Below are positions 13,807 through 32,526 of a DNA stretch of 37,635 nucleotides, piece after piece. The number at the start of each line of letters is the position of its first letter. Within the stretch, counting starts at the first letter, position 1. The position numbers were made by a program, and so were the translations under genes. This stretch comes from Candidatus Eremiobacteraceae bacterium (lineage in GTDB: Bacteria > Vulcanimicrobiota > Vulcanimicrobiia > Eremiobacterales > Eremiobacteraceae), in contig DASTCX010000034.1 of assembly GCA_035710745.1 (NCBI GenBank), positions 1 to 37,635 on the forward strand, written 5' to 3'. Under the pieces are notes generated by a model. It saw only the letters and a list, made by a program, of their open reading frames with translations, had not been told where the DNA came from and made no database searches.

Positions 13807-13862
13807 GTAGCGGTCGCGCGATTGCAGAGTCGTCTCCGGTCGAGCTGAAGCTCGACCGCTAC
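13807..13862. repeat. GGTCGA/TCGACC palindromic repeat, composite copy
   Basis: The inner palindrome GGTCGAGCT-GA-AGCTCGACC occupies 13838-13857. An outer 10-base inverted pair, GTAGCGGTCG (13807-13816) and CGACCGCTAC (13853-13862), shares its right arm, so two alternative hairpins are possible. It matches the copies inside dnaE2 at 27496-27515 and 27601-27620 apart from one central base. It lies between a terminator and the DUF3311 gene. Confidence 0.75.
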
Positions 13863-16636: not shown

Positions 16637-17866
16637 CTAGAGCGCGCGCACGATCAGGCACTTGAGGTAGGACGTCTCGGGTGCGTCGAGCAGCACCGGA
16701 TGGTCCGGCGGTTGCGTCCGCTCTTCAAGCAATTGGAGATCCCGCCCGGCATCGTCGCCCGCCGCTTTGACGATGCCGACGAAATCATCGAGGCCGATCG
16801 GGCGAGAGCACGAGCATGTGACGAGAATGCCTCCCGGCTCGAGCGTCCGAATGGCACGGAGATTGATCTCCTTGTAGCCACGCAGTGCGGAATCGATCGT
16901 CGACTTTCCGCGCGCGAATGCCGGCGGATCGAGGATGACCATCCCGAAGCGTTGCCCGGAGTCGTCGGCGTGCCGGAGCCAGTCGAAGCAGTTCGCCTCG
17001 ACGACGTCGGCTTCGGCGAAGCCGTTGAGCGTCATGTTACGCAGCGCGAGCGCGCACGCCGGCGCCGAAATGTCGACGCTCGTCACCGCGGCCCCTCCTG
17101 CAAGAGCGGCGTGGACGCTGAAACCGCCGGAGTACGAGAAACAGTTGACGACGCGCCGGTTCTTGGCGTAGGCAGCCGCCGCGCGACGGTTCACTCGCTG
17201 GTCGAGGAACAACCCGGTCTTCTGCCCGTGCGCGATGTCGACGAGCAATCGCGCGTCGCCCTCGCGTATCTCGACGGTCTCGGGCGGCTCGCCGCCGGCA
17301 AGTGGACCGGCTTTCGGTTCGAGCCCCTCGAGCGAACGCTCCGGTACATCGCTTCGTTCGAATATCCCGGTCGGCGAACAGGCGGAAACGAGCGACTCGA
17401 CGATCGCGGTGCGCATCACATCAGCGCCGAGCGTCGACAACTGGATGGAGAGCCAGCCGGCGTAGCGATCGACGACGACGCCGGGAAGGCCATCGCCTTC
17501 GGCATTGACGAGACGCACGCCATCGCCGGACGCAAGTGCACCGCGACGCGCGACCGACGCAGCGATCGCCCGTTTCCACCACGCGGCGTCGACCGGCTCG
17601 TCGACGCGGTAGAGCAAGCGCAGGACGATCTTCGATCGGCGGTTGCAGTACGCCATCGCGAAGAACTTGCGGCGATGATCGAGGACTCGGACCGGCTGGC
17701 CGTCTTGGATCTCGTCCGGAAGCGACGCGATTTCGCCTTCGAATACCCAAGGATGGCGCGCGCGCTCGGGGCGGCGCGGCTTTAAGATCGCGGCAGGGCC
17801 GGCCGCGGCTACGTTGGTCGCTGCCCTGCTCGGCTCCGCCGCCTTCTTCTTGCTTGCAGTCGTCAA
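16637..17866 (-). CDS. rlmI: RlmI-type class I rRNA (cytosine-C5) methyltransferase
   Basis: A 409-aa SAM-dependent methyltransferase. An N-terminal PUA domain (about residues 27-100, [19 protein letters not shown]) precedes a linker domain and a Rossmann fold. Motifs are [35 protein letters not shown] (SAM-binding motif I), [25 protein letters not shown] (motif IV) and [13 protein letters not shown]. coli RlmI methylates 23S rRNA C1962; the same target is likely but not proven. A basic, alanine-rich 25-residue N-terminal extension is unusual. The ATG overlaps the clpB stop by 4 bases (ATGA), so it should be translated from the clpB message. Confidence 0.9.
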
Positions 17867-20496
17867 CGCGCCGTCCGGGCGCGCTTCACCTCGCCGTCGA
17901 CCTTCTTCGCATCGGCCTTGCGGAAGGCGAGCTCGCCGCGATCGACATCCGCGATTATCCGATCGCCATCGGTGAATTCGCCGCCGAGGATGCGCAATGC
18001 GAGCGGATCCACGATCTCCTTCTGCAACGCTCGCTTGAGCGGTCGCGCTCCGTACACCGGATCGTAGCCTTTGTGCGCGAGCAGCGCCTTCGCCTGATCG
18101 GTCAGCTCGAGTGTTATACCGCGTTCCGACATGCGTTTGGTCAGGCCGCGCAACTGGATATCGACGATGTGCTTGGTGTCCTCGAGCGTGAGGTTGCGGA
18201 AGATGATGATCTCGTCGAGCCGGTTGAGGAACTCGGGCCGGAAGTGCGTCTGCATCGCTTCCATGACGCGCGAGCGGATCGCCTGTTCGTCGCCCGCGAA
18301 CTCGGTGATGACCGACGAGCCGATATTGCTCGTCATGATGAGGACGGTGTTCTTGAAGTCGACGATGCGGCCTTGGCCATCGGTGAGCCGGCCGTCGTCG
18401 AGTATCTGGAGCATGACGTTGAAGACGTCCGGATGCGCTTTTTCGATCTCGTCGAAAAGCACGACCGAGTACGGCCGGCGTCGTACGGCTTCGGTCAGTT
18501 GGCCGCCTTCTTCGTACCCGACGTAGCCGGGCGGCGCTCCGATCATGCGCGCGACGGCGTGCTTCTCCATGTATTCGGACATGTCGATGCGGATCATCGC
18601 GCGCTCGTCGTCGAAGAGGAACGCCGCGAGGGCGCGCGCGAGCTCGGTCTTGCCGACGCCCGTCGGACCGAGGAAGACGAACGAGCCGAGCGGCCGGTTC
18701 GGATCTTGCAGTCCGGCACGTGCGCGACGCACGGCTGCCGCGACCGCCTTCACCGCCTCATTTTGGCCGACGACACGTTCGTGCAGCCTGTCCTCCATCT
18801 TGAGGAGCTTCTCGACGTCGCCTTCCAAGAGTTTCGTCACCGGAATGCCGGTCCAGCGCGCGACGATCTCGGCGATGTCGTGCTCGTCGACTTCCTCTTT
18901 GAACATCTTGCCGGCTTTGTCGTCGGCAGAGAGGCGCGATTCGATCTCCGCCATCTGTTTCTGGAGCCCCGGGATGACGCCATACTCGAGCTCCGAAGCG
19001 CGTGCGTAGTCAACGCTGTCCTTGGCTCGCTGGAGATCGGCCTTGGCGTTCTCGAGCTTCGCCTTGATGGCGCTCACCTCGCCGATGGCGCTCTTCTCCG
19101 CCTGCCACCGGGCGCGCAACTGATCCGCTTGTTCTTTGAGATCGGCGAGCTCTTTCTCGAGATCGGCCAATCGCCGCTTCGACGCGCCGTCCGTCTCCTT
19201 CTGGAGCGCGACTCGCTCGATCTCGAGCTGCATGCGGCGCCGCTCGACCTCGTCGAGCTCGACCGGCATCGAGTCCATCTCCATGCGCAGCTTGCTCGCC
19301 GCTTCGTCGACGAGATCGATCGCCTTATCAGGCAAGAAGCGATCGGCGATGTAGCGGTTCGAAAGGACGGCCGCGGCGACGAGCGCCGAGTCCTTGATCT
19401 TCACCCGATGGTGGACTTCATAACGTTCGCGAAGCCCACGCAATATCGAGATCGTGTCCTCGACGCTCGGCTCGCCCACCATGACGACCTGGAAACGCCG
19501 CTCGAGCGCTGCGTCCTTCTCGATATACTTGCGGTATTCGTCGAGCGTCGTCGCACCGATCGTGTGCAGCTCGCCTCTCGCGAGCATCGGCTTGAGCATG
19601 TTCGACGCGTCCATCGCACCTTCAGCGGCGCCGGCGCCGACGACGGTGTGGAGCTCGTCGATGAAGAGGATGATCTCGCCCTGGCTTTGCGCAATCTCTT
19701 TGAGGACGGCCTTGAGCCGGTCTTCGAACTCGCCGCGGTATTTCGCGCCGGCGATCAGCGAACCGAGATCGAGCGCGATGATGCGCCTGTCGCGCAGCCC
19801 TTCAGGCACGTCGCCGCGAACGATGCGAAGTGCGAGGCCCTCGACGATCGCGGTCTTGCCGACGCCCGGCTCGCCGATGAGTACCGGATTGTTCTTCGTG
19901 CGCCGCGATAGCACTTGGATGACCCGGCGGATCTCGTCATCTCGCCCGATGACCGGATCGACCTTGTTCTGGCGAGCGAGCTGGGTGAGATCGCGACCGT
20001 ACCGCTCGAGCGCCTGGTACTTGCCTTCCGGATTTTGATCGGTGATGCGCTGGCTGCCGCGGACGGTCGCAAGCGCTTTGAGGATTGAGTCCTTCGTCGC
20101 GCCGACATTCTTGAGGAGCGCGGCCGCCTCCGACTTGCCTTTCGTATCGGCGATGGCGAGCAGCAGATGCTCGGTCGAGATATAGTCGTCTTTGAACGTG
20201 ATCGCTTCGTCGCCGGCGCGCGTAAGAACGTCGTTCAGTTCCCGGCCGATGCGCGGCTCGCCGCCGCCGTAGACCTTCGGGCGTGCGTCGATCGCCGCCT
20301 GAAGCTGGTTCGTGAGCGACGCTACGTTGACGCCCATCTGTCGCAGGACGACCGCGGGGACGCCCTCGTCATCCGATATCAGCGCGAGCAGCAGGTGCTC
20401 GGAATCGATCTCGGGTGCGCCGTGGTCCTGTGCGATCTTTTGCGCGCCGATGACCGCCGCTTGCGCCCTTTCGGTGAGCTTGTTGAAATCCGCCAT
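17863..20496 (-). CDS. clpB: ATP-dependent chaperone ClpB
   Basis: A full-length 877-aa Hsp100 disaggregase that rescues aggregated proteins together with DnaK. An N-terminal double Clp repeat (about 1-150) precedes AAA+ module 1 with Walker A GEPGVGKT (208-215) and Walker B LFIDELH. The coiled-coil M domain (about 405-525) follows, then AAA+ module 2 with Walker A GPTGVGKT (610-617) and [12 protein letters not shown]. The C-terminal part contains [16 protein letters not shown]. The M domain distinguishes it from ClpA/ClpX, and no ClpP-recognition loop is obvious. I found no CIRCE element in the 84 bases upstream, which instead hold a palindromic repeat. It is followed by the methyltransferase gene with a 4-base overlap. 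Confidence 0.97.
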
Positions 20497-20550: not shown

Positions 20551-20574
20551 GCGGTCGAGATTTATCTCGACCGC
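20551..20574. repeat. GGTCGA/TCGACC palindromic repeat upstream of clpB
   Basis: GCGGTCGAGAT (20551-20561) and ATCTCGACCGC (20564-20574) form an 11-base perfect palindrome with a 2-base centre. Read on the minus strand it continues into GCTCCCTTTTC, the flank also seen after the copies at 27439 and 27544. It lies between the clpB start and the lipoprotein stop, in the presumed 5' region of clpB. Confidence 0.75.
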
Positions 20575-20580
20575 CGCGGC

Positions 20581-21618
20581 CTAGTTCGGCAGCGTGTTGG
20601 GAATCGTCGTGAAGCCGTCCGGATGGCCTGTCACGTATGATCCCTCCGCCCGGCCGTCCGGGAAGCTGCTCTGAAGGATGAAGGTGAAGCTGCCGCTCAC
20701 ATCTTGGTCGCCGATGAATACCTCCGTCGAGTCGGCGCTGAGGCGAATCCCGCCAGAGCAGTTCGCGCCGAGGTCGTGCGCCTTGCCTGTCGCCTTTTCG
20801 TACGGCTTCGGGTACACGACCATCCGGCCTTCGATCCCACCGGCGCACTCGTCCGGGTTGTCGAGCGTCACGAGATCGTCCGTCTTCGGATCGATCGCCA
20901 GACCCGAATATCCGCCCGAGATCTTGAGCGCGAGCTCGAAGCACTGATGCGGTTCGGGTCCATTTGCGCCGTTCGGCATCTCGATGATGCGCGCGGCGAA
21001 TCTCGGCGTGAAAACGGCGACGAAGATATCACCCTCGTTGTCCGCCGCGATGCCATACGAGAGATCGATAAGCCCGCAACCGGAAAGATCGCGCGGATGT
21101 TGGCGATCGCCTCTTGGATACTCGACGACGGTGTCGGCTGGCCGCGTACTGTTGGTGACGAAGATGTTCTCGTTCTTGTCGATCGCCACGTCGAGTGCCG
21201 ACCCGAACGGGTCGGGAAGGGTCGTCTGCGCGGCGGTCGCGACGTTATAGAGGAGGACCGACGGGCCGCTCGTCGCGATCGCGACGACGTTGCCGTGCGC
21301 AGCGAGCGAAGTGAAGCCGAGACCGAGCGGACCTGAGATCGGCTGCGGGTTGCTACCGCCGCCCATCGTGATCGGCCACGCTTCAAGTTCACCGGTGTCG
21401 CCGCTGACCGCGATGATCGCGGGGCGCGTGAACGCAGATCGCACGTCCGGATGCGCCGCGAATGGCGCCGAGAGATTCAGGGCCGGCTGCCCGAAAGCCG
21501 GCGCTCGCGGGCCGGTGCCGATCGACGGGGTCGACGATGGCCCGGCCGAGCATGCGGCGACGAAAAGACCGACGACGCCGAACGCGAGCCTCGCGATCGG
21601 ATTGATGTGCTCTTGCAT
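20581..21618 (-). CDS. Propeller-type lipoprotein
   Basis: A 345-aa protein. ATG 21618 is chosen because GGGAGAG lies close upstream and it gives a lipoprotein signal (ARLAFGVVGLFVAAC, lipobox VAAC). A Ser/Pro-rich linker leads into a propeller-like repeat region with NHL/SMP-30-like strands: ALDVAIDKNENIFVTNSTRP, SYGIAADNEGDIFVAVF, YSGLAIDPKTDDLVTLDN and GGIRLSADSTEVFIGDQD. The function is unknown; extracytoplasmic binding is plausible. It resembles the 12748-13710 lipoprotein in design but not closely in sequence. Only 84 bases separate it from clpB downstream, so readthrough into clpB is possible. Confidence 0.78.
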   Translation of the reverse strand: MQEHINPIARLAFGVVGLFVAACSAGPSSTPSIGTGPRAPAFGQPALNLSAPFAAHPDVRSAFTRPAIIAVSGDTGELEAWPITMGGGSNPQPISGPLGLGFTSLAAHGNVVAIATSGPSVLLYNVATAAQTTLPDPFGSALDVAIDKNENIFVTNSTRPADTVVEYPRGDRQHPRDLSGCGLIDLSYGIAADNEGDIFVAVFTPRFAARIIEMPNGANGPEPHQCFELALKISGGYSGLAIDPKTDDLVTLDNPDECAGGIEGRMVVYPKPYEKATGKAHDLGANCSGGIRLSADSTEVFIGDQDVSGSFTFILQSSFPDGRAEGSYVTGHPDGFTTIPNTLPN

Positions 21619-21758
21619 GATGACTCTCCCGACAGGCCCTGTGCCAGTTACGATACAGCAGCGGGACTCCAAAAGCAAAGCCGCGGGGGCCGACTTATGA
21701 CGCAGGACCGGACTGACTGCCTCCGCCTAGCCGGCCGGTCTCCGGGCGTGATAACGGG

Positions 21759-26705: not shown

Positions 26706-29700
26706 CTATCGGAAGTCGCGCGATGTCAGGCCTTCTTCGAGCCGCTCCAGGTCGAGCTTCCAGAACTTGCGCGCGAGCACGTTGATCGTGCCGTCCTGTT
26801 TTTGCAATATGCCTTCCACGATGACCGCAGGTTCCTCGCGCGCGACCGGCCGGTAGCGTTCGTAGATGTCCGGTCTGATGATGACGTTGATGAGGCCGGT
26901 CTCATCCTCCATCGTCGTGAAGACGAAACCTTTCGCGGTTCCAGGACGCTGGCGCGTCGTCACGACGCCGGCCACCTTTAGGACGAGGCGATGCGGCAAG
27001 CTCGGCAGATCGGATGCGCGGTGGACCCGCAGCTTGTCGAGCTCCTCGCGATAGAACTGGATCGCTTGATAGCGCGTCGATAGGCTCAAGCCCCAGAAAT
27101 CGGCGGCGGCTTCTTCTACGGGACGCATCGGCGGCAGCGATACTTGCTGTTCGTCGACGGTCATACCGCGTTCCAGCGCCCCGACGCGCGGCAGGTCGCC
27201 GAGCCGCTGGACTTGCCAGAGCGCCTCGCGGCGCAAAAGGCCGAAGCACGCGAATGCGTCGACCGCGGCGAGCGATTCGAGGACGTCTTTCGCAAGGCTC
27301 GTTCGCAAGATGAAATCGCGGACGTCGCTGTACGGGCCTTTCGTGCGCTCTGCGTTGAGGTGCTCGCGATGTTTCTCTCCGATGCCACGCACTTGGTTGA
27401 GGCCGATACGCATCGCGTACCGCGGATGCGCGGCCGCGGCGGTCGACGATAAACGTCGACCGCTCCCTTTTCCATCATCGTGCGAGGCCGACTCCGGTCG
27501 AGCTAAAGCTCGACCGCTACAATCCGTTGCTTGCGCGGCCGCGGCGGTCGACGATAAACGTCGACCGCTCCCTTTTCCATCATCGTGCGAGGCCGGCTCC
27601 GGTCGAGCTAAAGCTCGACCGCTACAATCCGCTGGTTGCGAGGCCGCGCCGGTCGAGATAGATCTCGACCGCTCCCCATCGATCAGCGGTTCGGAAGTGC
27701 ATTCGTAGGCCGAGGCGTTTACATCCGGCGGCAGCACGACGACGCCGCGACGGCGCGCGTCGGCGACCAGCGAAGCCGGCGAGTAGAAACCCATCGGCTG
27801 CGCGTTGAGGAGCGACGCATAGAACTCCGGCGCGTAGTGCACCTTGAGATAGCCCGAGACGTAGACGATGAGCGCGAACGACGCCGCGTGCGATTCCGGA
27901 AAACCGTAGTCGGCGAACGCGCTCAACATCTGGTACAGACGCGCGCCGAGCTCCGCCGAGATGCCGTTGTGCGTCATGCCCTCGATGAGCCGGCCGCGCA
28001 GCCGCTCCATCTTCTCGCGCGACCGTTTGTGGCCCATCGCGCGGCGCAGTTCGTCCGCCTGGCCGGCCGTGAATCCCGCGACCTCGACCGCCATGCGCAT
28101 GCCCTGCTCTTGGAAGAGCGGCACGCCGAGCGTCCGCTCGAGCACCGGCACGAGCTTCGGATGCGGATAATCGACCTGCTCGCGGCCCTGGCGCCGGCGT
28201 ATATAAGGATGGACCATGTCGCCTTGGATCGGTCCGGGGCGGATGATCGCGACCTGGACGACGACGTCGTAGAAGCGCCGAGGCTTCAGCCGAGGCAGCG
28301 ACGCCATTTGCGCGCGCGATTCGACTTGGAACAGACCGACCGTATCGGCGGCGCACAGCATGTCGTAGACGGCGGGATCGTCGCAGCCGCGCAGGTCCGC
28401 GAGGTCGACCTTGATGCCGCGAACGCGATCGATCTCGGCGATGGAACGCTCGATCGCGTCGAGCATGCCCAAGCCCAAGATGTCGATCTTGATGAGCCCG
28501 AGCGTCGCGCAGTCATCCTTATCCCAACAGAGGATCGTCCGGTTCGGCATCGCGGCGGGCTCGAGCGGCGCGACTTCGACGAGCGGCGACCGCGTGACGA
28601 CCATGCCGCCGACGTGCTGGCTCAAGTGGCGCGGGAACGAGTCGATGCGGCCGCAGAGCGCATACAGCCGGCGCGCGACGTCGCCGCCGAGATCGACTTT
28701 AAGCGCCGCCGGCATCGATTCGACCGCCGCTTCGACGGCGGCCGCAGACATCGACGTCCAATCGCCGTGCTTGGTCACGCCGAGCGCTTCGTGAGGCGCG
28801 AGCGACGCGGCGACCTGCGACGCTTCTTCTTCGACGGCGATGGCGGCGTGGCTGTCGAGCGACTTCGCGAGCGCATCGACCTGGTCGAGCGACAAGCCGA
28901 GCGCCTTACCGATGTCGCGCACGGCCATGCGCGCGCGATAGCAGATGACTTCGGCAACCATCCCCGCATGTTCGCGGCCATACCGTTCGTAGACGTATTG
29001 GATGATCGCTTCGCGCTGATCGCCGGACGGCGTGTCGAGATCGATATCGGGCAGCTCGTCGCGCTCTTCCGACAAAAACCGCTCGAAGAGCAGTCCGAGG
29101 CCGACGGGATCGACGCTCGTGATGTTGAGCGCGTAGCACACCGCCGAGTTCGCGGCAGAGCCGCGCCCCTGGACGAGGATATTGCGCTCGCCTGCGAAGC
29201 GCACGATATCCCAGACGATGAGGAAGTAGCCGGCGAGGTCGAGCTTCTCGATGACGCCGAGCTCGTGCGCGATCTGACGACTCACCGCGACCGTCACAGG
29301 CCGGTATCGGCGACGCACGCCCTCCTGCACGAGCATGTGGAGATACGAGAACGCGGTCTCGCCGGGCGGCAGCGGAAAATCGGGGAATTCGCCCTGGAGA
29401 CGTTCGAGCCGATACGCACAGCGCTGCGCGATGGCGACGCTCGCCGCGACCGCTCGCGGATGCTCGGCGAACAGGTGCTCCATCTGCGCAGGCGAGCGCA
29501 TGTAGTACTCGCCGTTCGGACGCAGTCGCGTGCCGGCTTCGTCGAGCGTCGTCTTCAGGCGGATGCAACAGAGGACGTCGGAGAGATCGCGATGTTCGGG
29601 CAGCGCGTAATGGACGCCGCCGGTCGCGACCGTGCCGAGATCGAGCGCTTGCGCGAGCGCGACGAGCGACCGGATGCGCGGGCCGTCATCGGGCACGAGA

Positions 29701-30255: not shown

Positions 30256-31746
30256 CTAGTCGAACACCCCCTGCAGATACCAGCGCCCGTCGCAGAGATC
30301 GCGGAAGACGAGCATGAGCCCGCCCGCGCGATCCATCAATTGGTAGTAGTCGCGATCGACGGGGCGCTCCCACCAGCTCTCGCTCAAGCGGAACGGTCCG
30401 GCGCACGTCGATGCGGCGTTCGGCGCTTCGATGAGCTTCGGCGGGCTGACGAGCCGCAATGCCGGCGCCCACGTGCGGCCGGAGCGTTCGACATCAGGCC
30501 GGACGCCGTTCGAGATCGGCGGATCGGACGGTTCCATCTGCTTCGGCGACGCGACCGGCACCGACCGCTGCATGCGCTCCGGCAGGCGCGAACGCGCCGG
30601 TGACGGTTCGACGATAACGACGCCGTCGGGTTCGAGCGTCGCGCGCAGACGTGCGAGCGTCGCGGCAAGCGCCGCGCGGCGCGATGCGCTCGCACCGCCG
30701 AAGAGCGTCATCTGCGGCGGCGGCAGTCCGCACGGCGTCGCGCGCACGATCGCCGCTTCGACTTCGCCGAGCCGTTCGCGCGACTCGAGCGCGATGCGGA
30801 CGAGATCGAAGACCGTCGCGGCCGAAGCGGTCGGCTCGGCGAGCATGACGGGAATCGTGACGACGCTATGCGTGCGGTCGATCGTCGTCTCGATCGCGAG
30901 CTCGACCTTGTCGCACACCTGTGCCGCGCCTGCAAGCCGCGCGCAGAGATCCGCGATGCAGCCGCGCAGCGTGAAAAGCAGCGGCTCGAGCCGGTCGATG
31001 CAGTCGTCGAAAGCGAAGCGCTCTTCGTAGACGGTTTGACAGTGGCGCGGCCGCAACGGCTCGTCGTCGTCACCGCGCGCGAGCCGCACGTATTCGCGCG
31101 CGCGTTCGCCGAAGCGCGCCGCGAGCGGACCGACGGGCATCGCTGCGATCTGACCGATCGTGCGCAGGCCGAGCAGATCGAAGCGATCCGCATCGCCCGG
31201 CGCGAGCGGCAATCGCGTCATCGGCAGCGGCTCCAGGAACGCGGCGCTGCCGCCGGGCGGCACGACGATCGCGCCAAGCATCGCGGCGGCGCAGCGCGCC
31301 GTGAACTTGTCGTCCGCGATGGAGGCAGCGCCGGCGAAGCCGAGCGACTTCGCGACCGCGATCGCCGCGCCGAGCGCACCCGTCTCGCCGGCCGGCAGAT
31401 TCGTCGCGTCGAAATAACACAGACCCGGAGCGCGGCCTTCGACGTCGGGACCGCAGGTCTCGAGCGCATCGAGCAGTTCCACGATCGCCGCACGTTCGGC
31501 GACTTCGTCGCGCGCGACGACGACGAGGCCCGGACACGCTGCCCGTGCCTGCTTCGGCGTCATGCCGACCTCGACGCCGCTCGCACCGTGACCCGCGCCG
31601 ATGATCTCGCGGCGCGACGCACCTTCCGCGACGGCGATCGGCCGGTTCGCGAGCGATGGGTTCGCGCGCAAGCTGACCTCGACGAGGAAGTGCGGCATGA
31701 AGAGACAGGCGATGCGACGATCACGCATGGGCGGCGACTCGCTCAT
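30256..31746 (-). CDS. imuB: ImuB, catalytically inactive Y-family polymerase
   Basis: A 496-aa Y-family polymerase-like protein that bridges DnaE2 to the sliding clamp in the SOS mutasome. The N-terminus RRIACLFMPHFLVEVSLRAN replaces the DMDAFF active-site motif of true Y-family polymerases, as expected for ImuB. The fold continues with AEGASRREIIGAGHGASGVE and the helix-hairpin region. A beta-clamp-binding motif QMTLF lies at residues about 345-349. The C-terminus RDLCDGRWYLQGVFD is typical of ImuB. ATG 31746 and ATG 31728 are both plausible; a longer frame to 31800 would consist of palindromic repeat sequence. The start overlaps the end of imuA. Confidence 0.88.
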   Translation of the reverse strand: MSESPPMRDRRIACLFMPHFLVEVSLRANPSLANRPIAVAEGASRREIIGAGHGASGVEVGMTPKQARAACPGLVVVARDEVAERAAIVELLDALETCGPDVEGRAPGLCYFDATNLPAGETGALGAAIAVAKSLGFAGAASIADDKFTARCAAAMLGAIVVPPGGSAAFLEPLPMTRLPLAPGDADRFDLLGLRTIGQIAAMPVGPLAARFGERAREYVRLARGDDDEPLRPRHCQTVYEERFAFDDCIDRLEPLLFTLRGCIADLCARLAGAAQVCDKVELAIETTIDRTHSVVTIPVMLAEPTASAATVFDLVRIALESRERLGEVEAAIVRATPCGLPPPQMTLFGGASASRRAALAATLARLRATLEPDGVVIVEPSPARSRLPERMQRSVPVASPKQMEPSDPPISNGVRPDVERSGRTWAPALRLVSPPKLIEAPNAASTCAGPFRLSESWWERPVDRDYYQLMDRAGGLMLVFRDLCDGRWYLQGVFD

Positions 31747-32485
31747 CGGGTCGAGCTTCGCTCGACCGGTCGACCGTAAAGGTCGACCGCTCCATTGCAT
31801 CGTCGAGGGACGTCGGCCACGAACCCGCGACGTCGGGCAGCGCCGCGCGGATCGTCGCGCGCTTGCCGGGCGCGTGCATCCGCGATTTCACCACTTCGAC
31901 CGACGCGGTGCAGCCCGCGAGCCGGCCGCGCGCCGCGCTGCCCTCCTGCCACACCGGCGTCAGACCGGCGGCGCGCAAGCGCAGCGAGGCGAACGATGCG
32001 AGAGCGGGCACGTCGCCGTTCGACAGCGCGACGATCGCCGTGCCGGTCCTCTCCGCTTGTGATGCGAGCCGCGTGCAGTGATGCGCGCGCAAGACGTCGC
32101 CGAGGCCGGTACAGTCGAAGACGACGAGCGCGCACGCGCCGCAACGCGCGACCGCGTCGACCGCGCGGCGTGCAAGATCGGCATTGCGCGGGCGCACGAC
32201 GAGCAGCCGCGACAGCTGGATGCCTGCGCCTGCGGCCGCAGGCGCGAAGAGCGCGTCGGCGGGATCGATGTATGCGGCGAGCAGGCCGCCGGCCGTGCAC
32301 GCGGCGAGCAGCGCGAACGCGATGCTCGTCTTACCGGACGACGGCGCGCCGAACACTTCGATCAAACGACCGCGCGGCACGCCGGACGGCGCGAGCAGCG
32401 CATCGAGTGCGGTGTTCGTGAAGAGCGCACTGCGCTCGGGCTGCACCAAGGCGCGCCCTCGCAGATCGGCTATAGACAAAGACAT
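31721..32485 (-). CDS. imuA: ImuA, RecA-like SOS mutagenesis protein
   Basis: A 254-aa RecA-fold ATPase-like protein, the first gene of the imuA-imuB-dnaE2 cassette. The Walker A motif is EVFGAPSSGKTS (residues about 43-54), followed by AAYIDPADALFAPAAAGAGI and VVFDCTGLGD (Walker B region). ImuA of other bacteria interacts with ImuB and modulates RecA; the exact role is still open. ATG 32485 is chosen, with GTG 32491 as an alternative. The last 24 or so residues (from MERSTFTVDRSSEARPDERV) are encoded by palindromic repeat DNA and look like an acquired tail. It is preceded by a LexA-box promoter. Confidence 0.85.
   Translation of the reverse strand: MSLSIADLRGRALVQPERSALFTNTALDALLAPSGVPRGRLIEVFGAPSSGKTSIAFALLAACTAGGLLAAYIDPADALFAPAAAGAGIQLSRLLVVRPRNADLARRAVDAVARCGACALVVFDCTGLGDVLRAHHCTRLASQAERTGTAIVALSNGDVPALASFASLRLRAAGLTPVWQEGSAARGRLAGCTASVEVVKSRMHAPGKRATIRAALPDVAGSWPTSLDDAMERSTFTVDRSSEARPDERVAAHA
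31749..31788. repeat. Two adjacent palindromes at the imuA/imuB junction
   Basis: GGTCGAGC-TTC-GCTCGACC (31749-31767) is directly followed by GGTCGACC-GTAAA-GGTCGACC (31768? counted as 31768-31788 by base position). Both belong to the family seen in dnaE2. They encode the C-terminal tail of ImuA in frame and end immediately before the proposed imuB start at 31746. Confidence 0.75.
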
Positions 32486-32526
32486 AGTCACCCGAAATCG
32501 CGCCCGTGCCGTGTCGTTGGGTGCTT

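Follow-up and report, generated by a model that had tools for sequence, protein, structure and literature searches.

The palindromes that lie within dnaE2 in this Candidatus Eremiobacteraceae bacterium are REP elements associated with RAYT transposases. We consider it very probable that such elements entered a hypervariable loop of the encoded DnaE2 polymerase in an open reading frame, that a pair of them was then duplicated in tandem, and that the resulting insert is tolerated. The window analysed is a stretch of 37,635 nt, in which imuB-like and imuA-like genes adjoin dnaE2 (Table 1).

Tandem Repeats Finder placed a repeat of period 105 in dnaE2, with 2.4 copies as assembled, 93% matches and a score of 437. 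As an earlier note on this DNA had observed, the repeats introduce neither a stop nor a frameshift: the array is read in frame, as residues about 838-920, and all 1160 codons stay open. Within each 105-bp unit two elements, differing in subtype, are arranged head-to-tail, and the five GGTCGA..TCGACC palindromes follow one another on the coding strand at start-to-start steps of 50, 54, 51 and 54 bases. The two complete units (27427-27531 and 27532-27636) are 97% identical, with 3 of 105 bases differing, which agrees with the earlier suggestion that copies were gained recently. The array is confirmed as real: the window holds 10 sites matching GGTCGAGN6CTCGACC with at most two mismatches, against 0.95 expected and no more than five in 100 shuffles. 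All of the dnaE2 copies share one orientation, and because they lie head-to-tail they are not REPINs, which consist of two inverted REPs.

Table 1. REP elements and genes of the mutasome cassette in the window
Feature	Position	Strand	Details
REP, intergenic	13838..13857	-	GTAG tag
REP, intergenic	20553..20572	+	GGAG tag; between ORFs 17863-20496 and 20581-21678
dnaE2, error-prone DNA polymerase, 1160 aa	26706..30188	-	NF004225 1265.5 bits (cut-off 939); Pfam domains
REP array in dnaE2	27427..27676	-	in-frame, head-to-tail; 5 REPs; 105-bp unit x 2.4
REP 5 (coding order)	27441..27466	-	GGAG-tagged variant, duplicate of REP 3; palindrome 27441-27461
REP 4	27496..27520	-	subtype A, duplicate of REP 2; palindrome 27496-27515
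REP 3	27546..27571	-	tag GGAGC + GGTCGACGTTTATCGTCGACC; GGAG-tagged stem variant; read as GSGRRLSST; palindrome 27546-27566
REP 2	27601..27625	-	tag GTAGC + GGTCGAGCTTTAGCTCGACC; subtype A; read as CSGRALARP; palindrome 27601-27620
REP 1	27651..27675	-	tag GGAGC + GGTCGAGATCTATCTCGACC; subtype B; read as ERSRSISTG; palindrome 27651-27670
imuB-like Y-family polymerase relative	30256..31800	-	PF00817; the REP probably precedes the true start
imuA-like RecA-fold protein	31721..32491	-	C-terminal tail REP-encoded; PF00154; NF033429 ImuA 55.8 bits, below the 150-bit cut-off
Single REP, imuA 3' end / imuB 5' end	31767..31794	-	GGTCGACCTTTACGGTCGACC

The assignment to a mobile palindrome family, also foreseen in the earlier note, is carried by the genome-wide distribution. 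The strict palindrome GGTCGAN8TCGACC, within the 20-40 bp expected of REPs, occurs 478 times in the 2.97 Mb of this genome and 302 times in its sole congener (81% complete), as against 0-7 times per genome in 12 genomes from the family's other genera; when reversed, the pattern gave 0 or 1 match in these genomes. A tag stands on one side of the palindrome, GTAGC in 187 copies and GGAGC in 259, and it predicts the stem. In a sample of 828 kb, taken in stretches and amounting to 28% of the genome, GTAG-tagged stems were GAGC..GCTC in 37 cases and GAGA..TCTC in 2, whereas GGAG-tagged stems were GAGC..GCTC in 3 and GAGA..TCTC in 59 (Fisher p = 1e-21). Reversed sequence gave no match to the REP profile at E <= 0.01. 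Five of the six frames of the subtype B consensus are open, as are three of those of subtype A.

A search for the matching Y1 transposase, as the earlier note had advised, found two RAYT genes in this genome and two in the congener. Both of the former exceed the cut-off of 80 for the REP-associated tyrosine transposase model NF047646 (89.2 and 94.6 bits), and a His-hydrophobic-His motif (DHVH or DHIH) with a downstream Tyr (WQRGYxER) can be read in the RAYT sequences. Each of the four genes has inverted palindromes of the matching subtype on either side. Two genes have the GTAG/CTTTAG form and the other two the GGAG/ATTCAT form, GTAG going with GAGCTTTAGCTC and GGAG with GAGATTYATCTC; each of the two RAYTs of this genome thus has its own subtype. 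Between the two species, orthologues share 85% and 82% identity; between the two types the figure is 61%. RAYT-like genes from other genera of the family, as far as checked, do not have this palindrome in their flanks. To judge from these sequences, the RAYTs of the genus would be what mobilises the REPs.

The REPs are mainly extragenic. Nine of the 90 clusters in the 828-kb sample, which is about 81% coding, fell inside genes called by our own codon-usage caller, a crude tool with at least one wrong call among the genes of the window, and inspection of the nine left three that are truly internal, in dnaE2, phoH and gltX. The congener's phoH has a REP-encoded stretch at the same linker, and the gltX stretch, GAVDPGRAKARPLQ, is the same in the congener, the aligned sequences of other genera being without it. 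In-frame REPs can therefore persist. In aroC, imuB and several other called genes the REP sits at the 5' margin and the true start probably lies downstream of it; these were dropped as intragenic cases, as was a degenerate REP in a GH1-type ORF (G000 C3:7318), which precedes a Glyco_hydro_1 match starting at residue 187. As a separate observation, a GH1-type glycosidase ORF (L146, 5041-7827, minus strand) contains a SBP_bac_3-like solute-binding stretch at residues 447-594, whose halves look, by eye, swapped in order; a natural insertion of a domain in circularly permuted form could explain this, as could an oddity of assembly or frame.

The insert in DnaE2 is rich in Ala, Ser, Gly and Arg and directly precedes the helix-hairpin-helix domain; the acidic motif PDIDLD is kept at residues 380-385. 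Alignment to relatives mapped the insertion, as the earlier note had hoped, and it also showed that the site is hypervariable in those relatives, with unrelated loop sequences. The relatives retrieved with DnaE2 set this genome within Candidatus Eremiobacterota. The loop from DVN to MRIGL spans 104 residues here, as against 22-71 in 12 sequences of the same family and 15-97 (median 36) in 51 other aligned sequences, the 97 belonging to one distant DnaE2. Of the roughly 84 added residues claimed earlier, the REP-encoded stretch itself stands, but the net gain over family relatives is only ~33-82 residues, because these already carry a variable loop there. In the congener's 81%-complete assembly, the search gave a DnaE1-like match and none at DnaE2 level. 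AlphaFold2, run with a 52-sequence alignment, gave a mean pLDDT of 85.1, and values below 50 are confined to residues 844-920 and two stretches of three residues, in line with the flexible loop envisaged before; the low-confidence segment sits between strands at 831-834 and 924-927. The relatives' variable loops and the low pLDDT therefore suggest that the loop was probably variable before the REPs arrived and that the insert is a disordered loop, in an otherwise intact polymerase. The DnaE2 of another genus of the family (L025) carries a different tandem repeat at the same loop, (E/K)GADAN about four times, an independent growth of repeats at one tolerant site.

We propose the following course of events. 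Each of the two RAYTs of the genus would have dispersed the palindrome bearing its own tag across the genome, and a single REP, or a few REPs of both subtypes arranged head-to-tail, would have entered the hypervariable loop of DnaE2 in a frame free of stops. Tandem duplication of the 54+51-bp pair, probably through slippage or unequal recombination, would have followed, at a length that keeps the frame, and would have given a disordered loop between two strands that selection tolerates. We infer that the arrival was driven by a RAYT, that the tandem duplication came later, and that the effect on the polymerase is near-neutral.

An alternative that we regard as unlikely is that the loop has been co-opted, altering the interactions of DnaE2 (with the beta clamp or ImuB) or, through hairpins, the translation of dnaE2, and so tuning mutagenesis. 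Support for such a role of the loop would consist of the prominence of DNA synthesis and repair genes among the published REP-bearing genes (PMC3733652) and of a second REP in the same cassette, at the imuA/imuB junction. The array RNA does fold far better than shuffles (z = -6.2), but this is a trivial result of the palindromes. The hypervariability of the loop, with up to 97 residues in a distant DnaE2, and the predicted disorder of the insert also speak against co-option, and phoH and gltX, the other two internal targets in the 28% sample, are not mutasome genes. The REP at the junction encodes the C-terminal end of the imuA-like frame and at the same time makes up the sequence upstream of imuB. 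A broader version, in which RAYTs and REPs multiply in this lineage chiefly as head-to-tail arrays and the dnaE2 array is a working disordered segment that alters mutasome assembly or the supply of mutations, seems to us distinctly improbable.

Another possibility is that the tandem copies in dnaE2 are an artefact of assembly, since REP arrays are frequent close to contig ends in this genome. However, the two units differ at three positions, the array is bordered by unique sequence on either side, all within a single open frame, and both genomes of the genus have head-to-tail arrays in many places; we hold an artefact to be very unlikely. REP arrays lie within ~250 bases of a contig end in contigs C1, C2, C3, C17, C24 and C40 of this genome; such arrays probably break the assembly, and the REP copy numbers are therefore likely underestimates. 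Near-identical tandem repeats in a coding region could also serve as an on/off frameshift switch of DnaE2 through variation in array length, a reading that we reject as highly improbable because the steps in the duplicated part (54, 51 and 54) are all multiples of three, and only the first (50) is not. Finally, a palindrome inserted in frame in a gene kept open recalls the Rickettsia palindromic elements, but a family of that kind, independent of RAYTs, has almost no likelihood here given the RAYT genes flanked by the same palindrome, the tags and the largely intergenic distribution.

RAYT-associated REPs that were inserted and then duplicated, the reading we prefer, fit a known class. GTAG-type REPs are short palindromes with a tetranucleotide tag at one end, are present in hundreds of mostly intergenic copies and flank RAYT genes; occasional in-frame copies, including ones in DnaE2 and tRNA synthetase genes, were reported in 2013 (Di Nocera 2013, PMC3733652). 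The elements described here resemble them in these points, apart from the make-up of the tag. In published tags it is the second and third positions that vary, and GGAG is absent from the variants given in the text, whereas more than half of the tagged copies in this genome are GGAG; Eremiobacterota/WPS-2 is not named in the main text of that paper (PMC3733652). The earlier note had seen an independent protein-tolerated family in another phylum: family and phylum are indeed new, but the elements are RAYT-associated and overwhelmingly intergenic, and in-frame REPs, DnaE2 included, were already known (PMC3733652). New are the family and the phylum it occurs in, the subfamily with GGAG tags, the surplus of head-to-tail arrays and the three sites of insertion. 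The predicted RAYTs of this genome resemble RAYT/TnpA-REP (NF047646; Nunvar 2010, PMC2817692) in their scores above the cut-off, their inverted cognate REPs and the match of gene to subtype, and no difference from that group was established. The 31 head-to-head pairs of this genome are like REPINs (PMC3116915), unlike the head-to-tail copies in dnaE2. Tolerance of in-frame insertion by the protein is shared with the Rickettsia palindromic elements, from which the mainly intergenic REPs of this genome differ; we know of no RAYT linked to those elements. Our search of the literature on palindromes or RAYTs of Eremiobacterota found nothing relevant.

These results extend RAYT-linked REPs to the Eremiobacterota, in a soil bacterium, and offer a clean natural experiment, in which both species retain both transposases, each with its matched tag/stem subtype. 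They add three in-frame insertions, two of them common to both species, to the cases of mobile palindromes turned into protein, and if the loop matters to DnaE2 they would link a mobile element directly to the supply of mutations.

Three features are unusual: the insert is long, there is a subfamily with GGAG tags, and head-to-tail pairs outnumber head-to-head ones, at 89 against 31 in this genome and 37 against 19 in the congener (whole-genome patterns, in which palindromes tagged on both sides can enter both counts). The 828-kb sample gave 39 head-to-tail, 19 head-to-head and 0 tail-to-tail pairs, the head-to-tail steps being 40-57 bases with no bias toward multiples of three; the 31 head-to-head pairs mostly have a step near 51 bp and mostly join subtype A to subtype B. 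Near-identical spacers in many arrays suggest that these, too, grew by tandem duplication. The 3' flank of the REPs is conserved past the palindrome (consensus GCCGCGGCCT in the 828-kb sample) and ends in CT, the dinucleotide cut by known TnpA-REP enzymes, which may make this end a candidate cleavage site.
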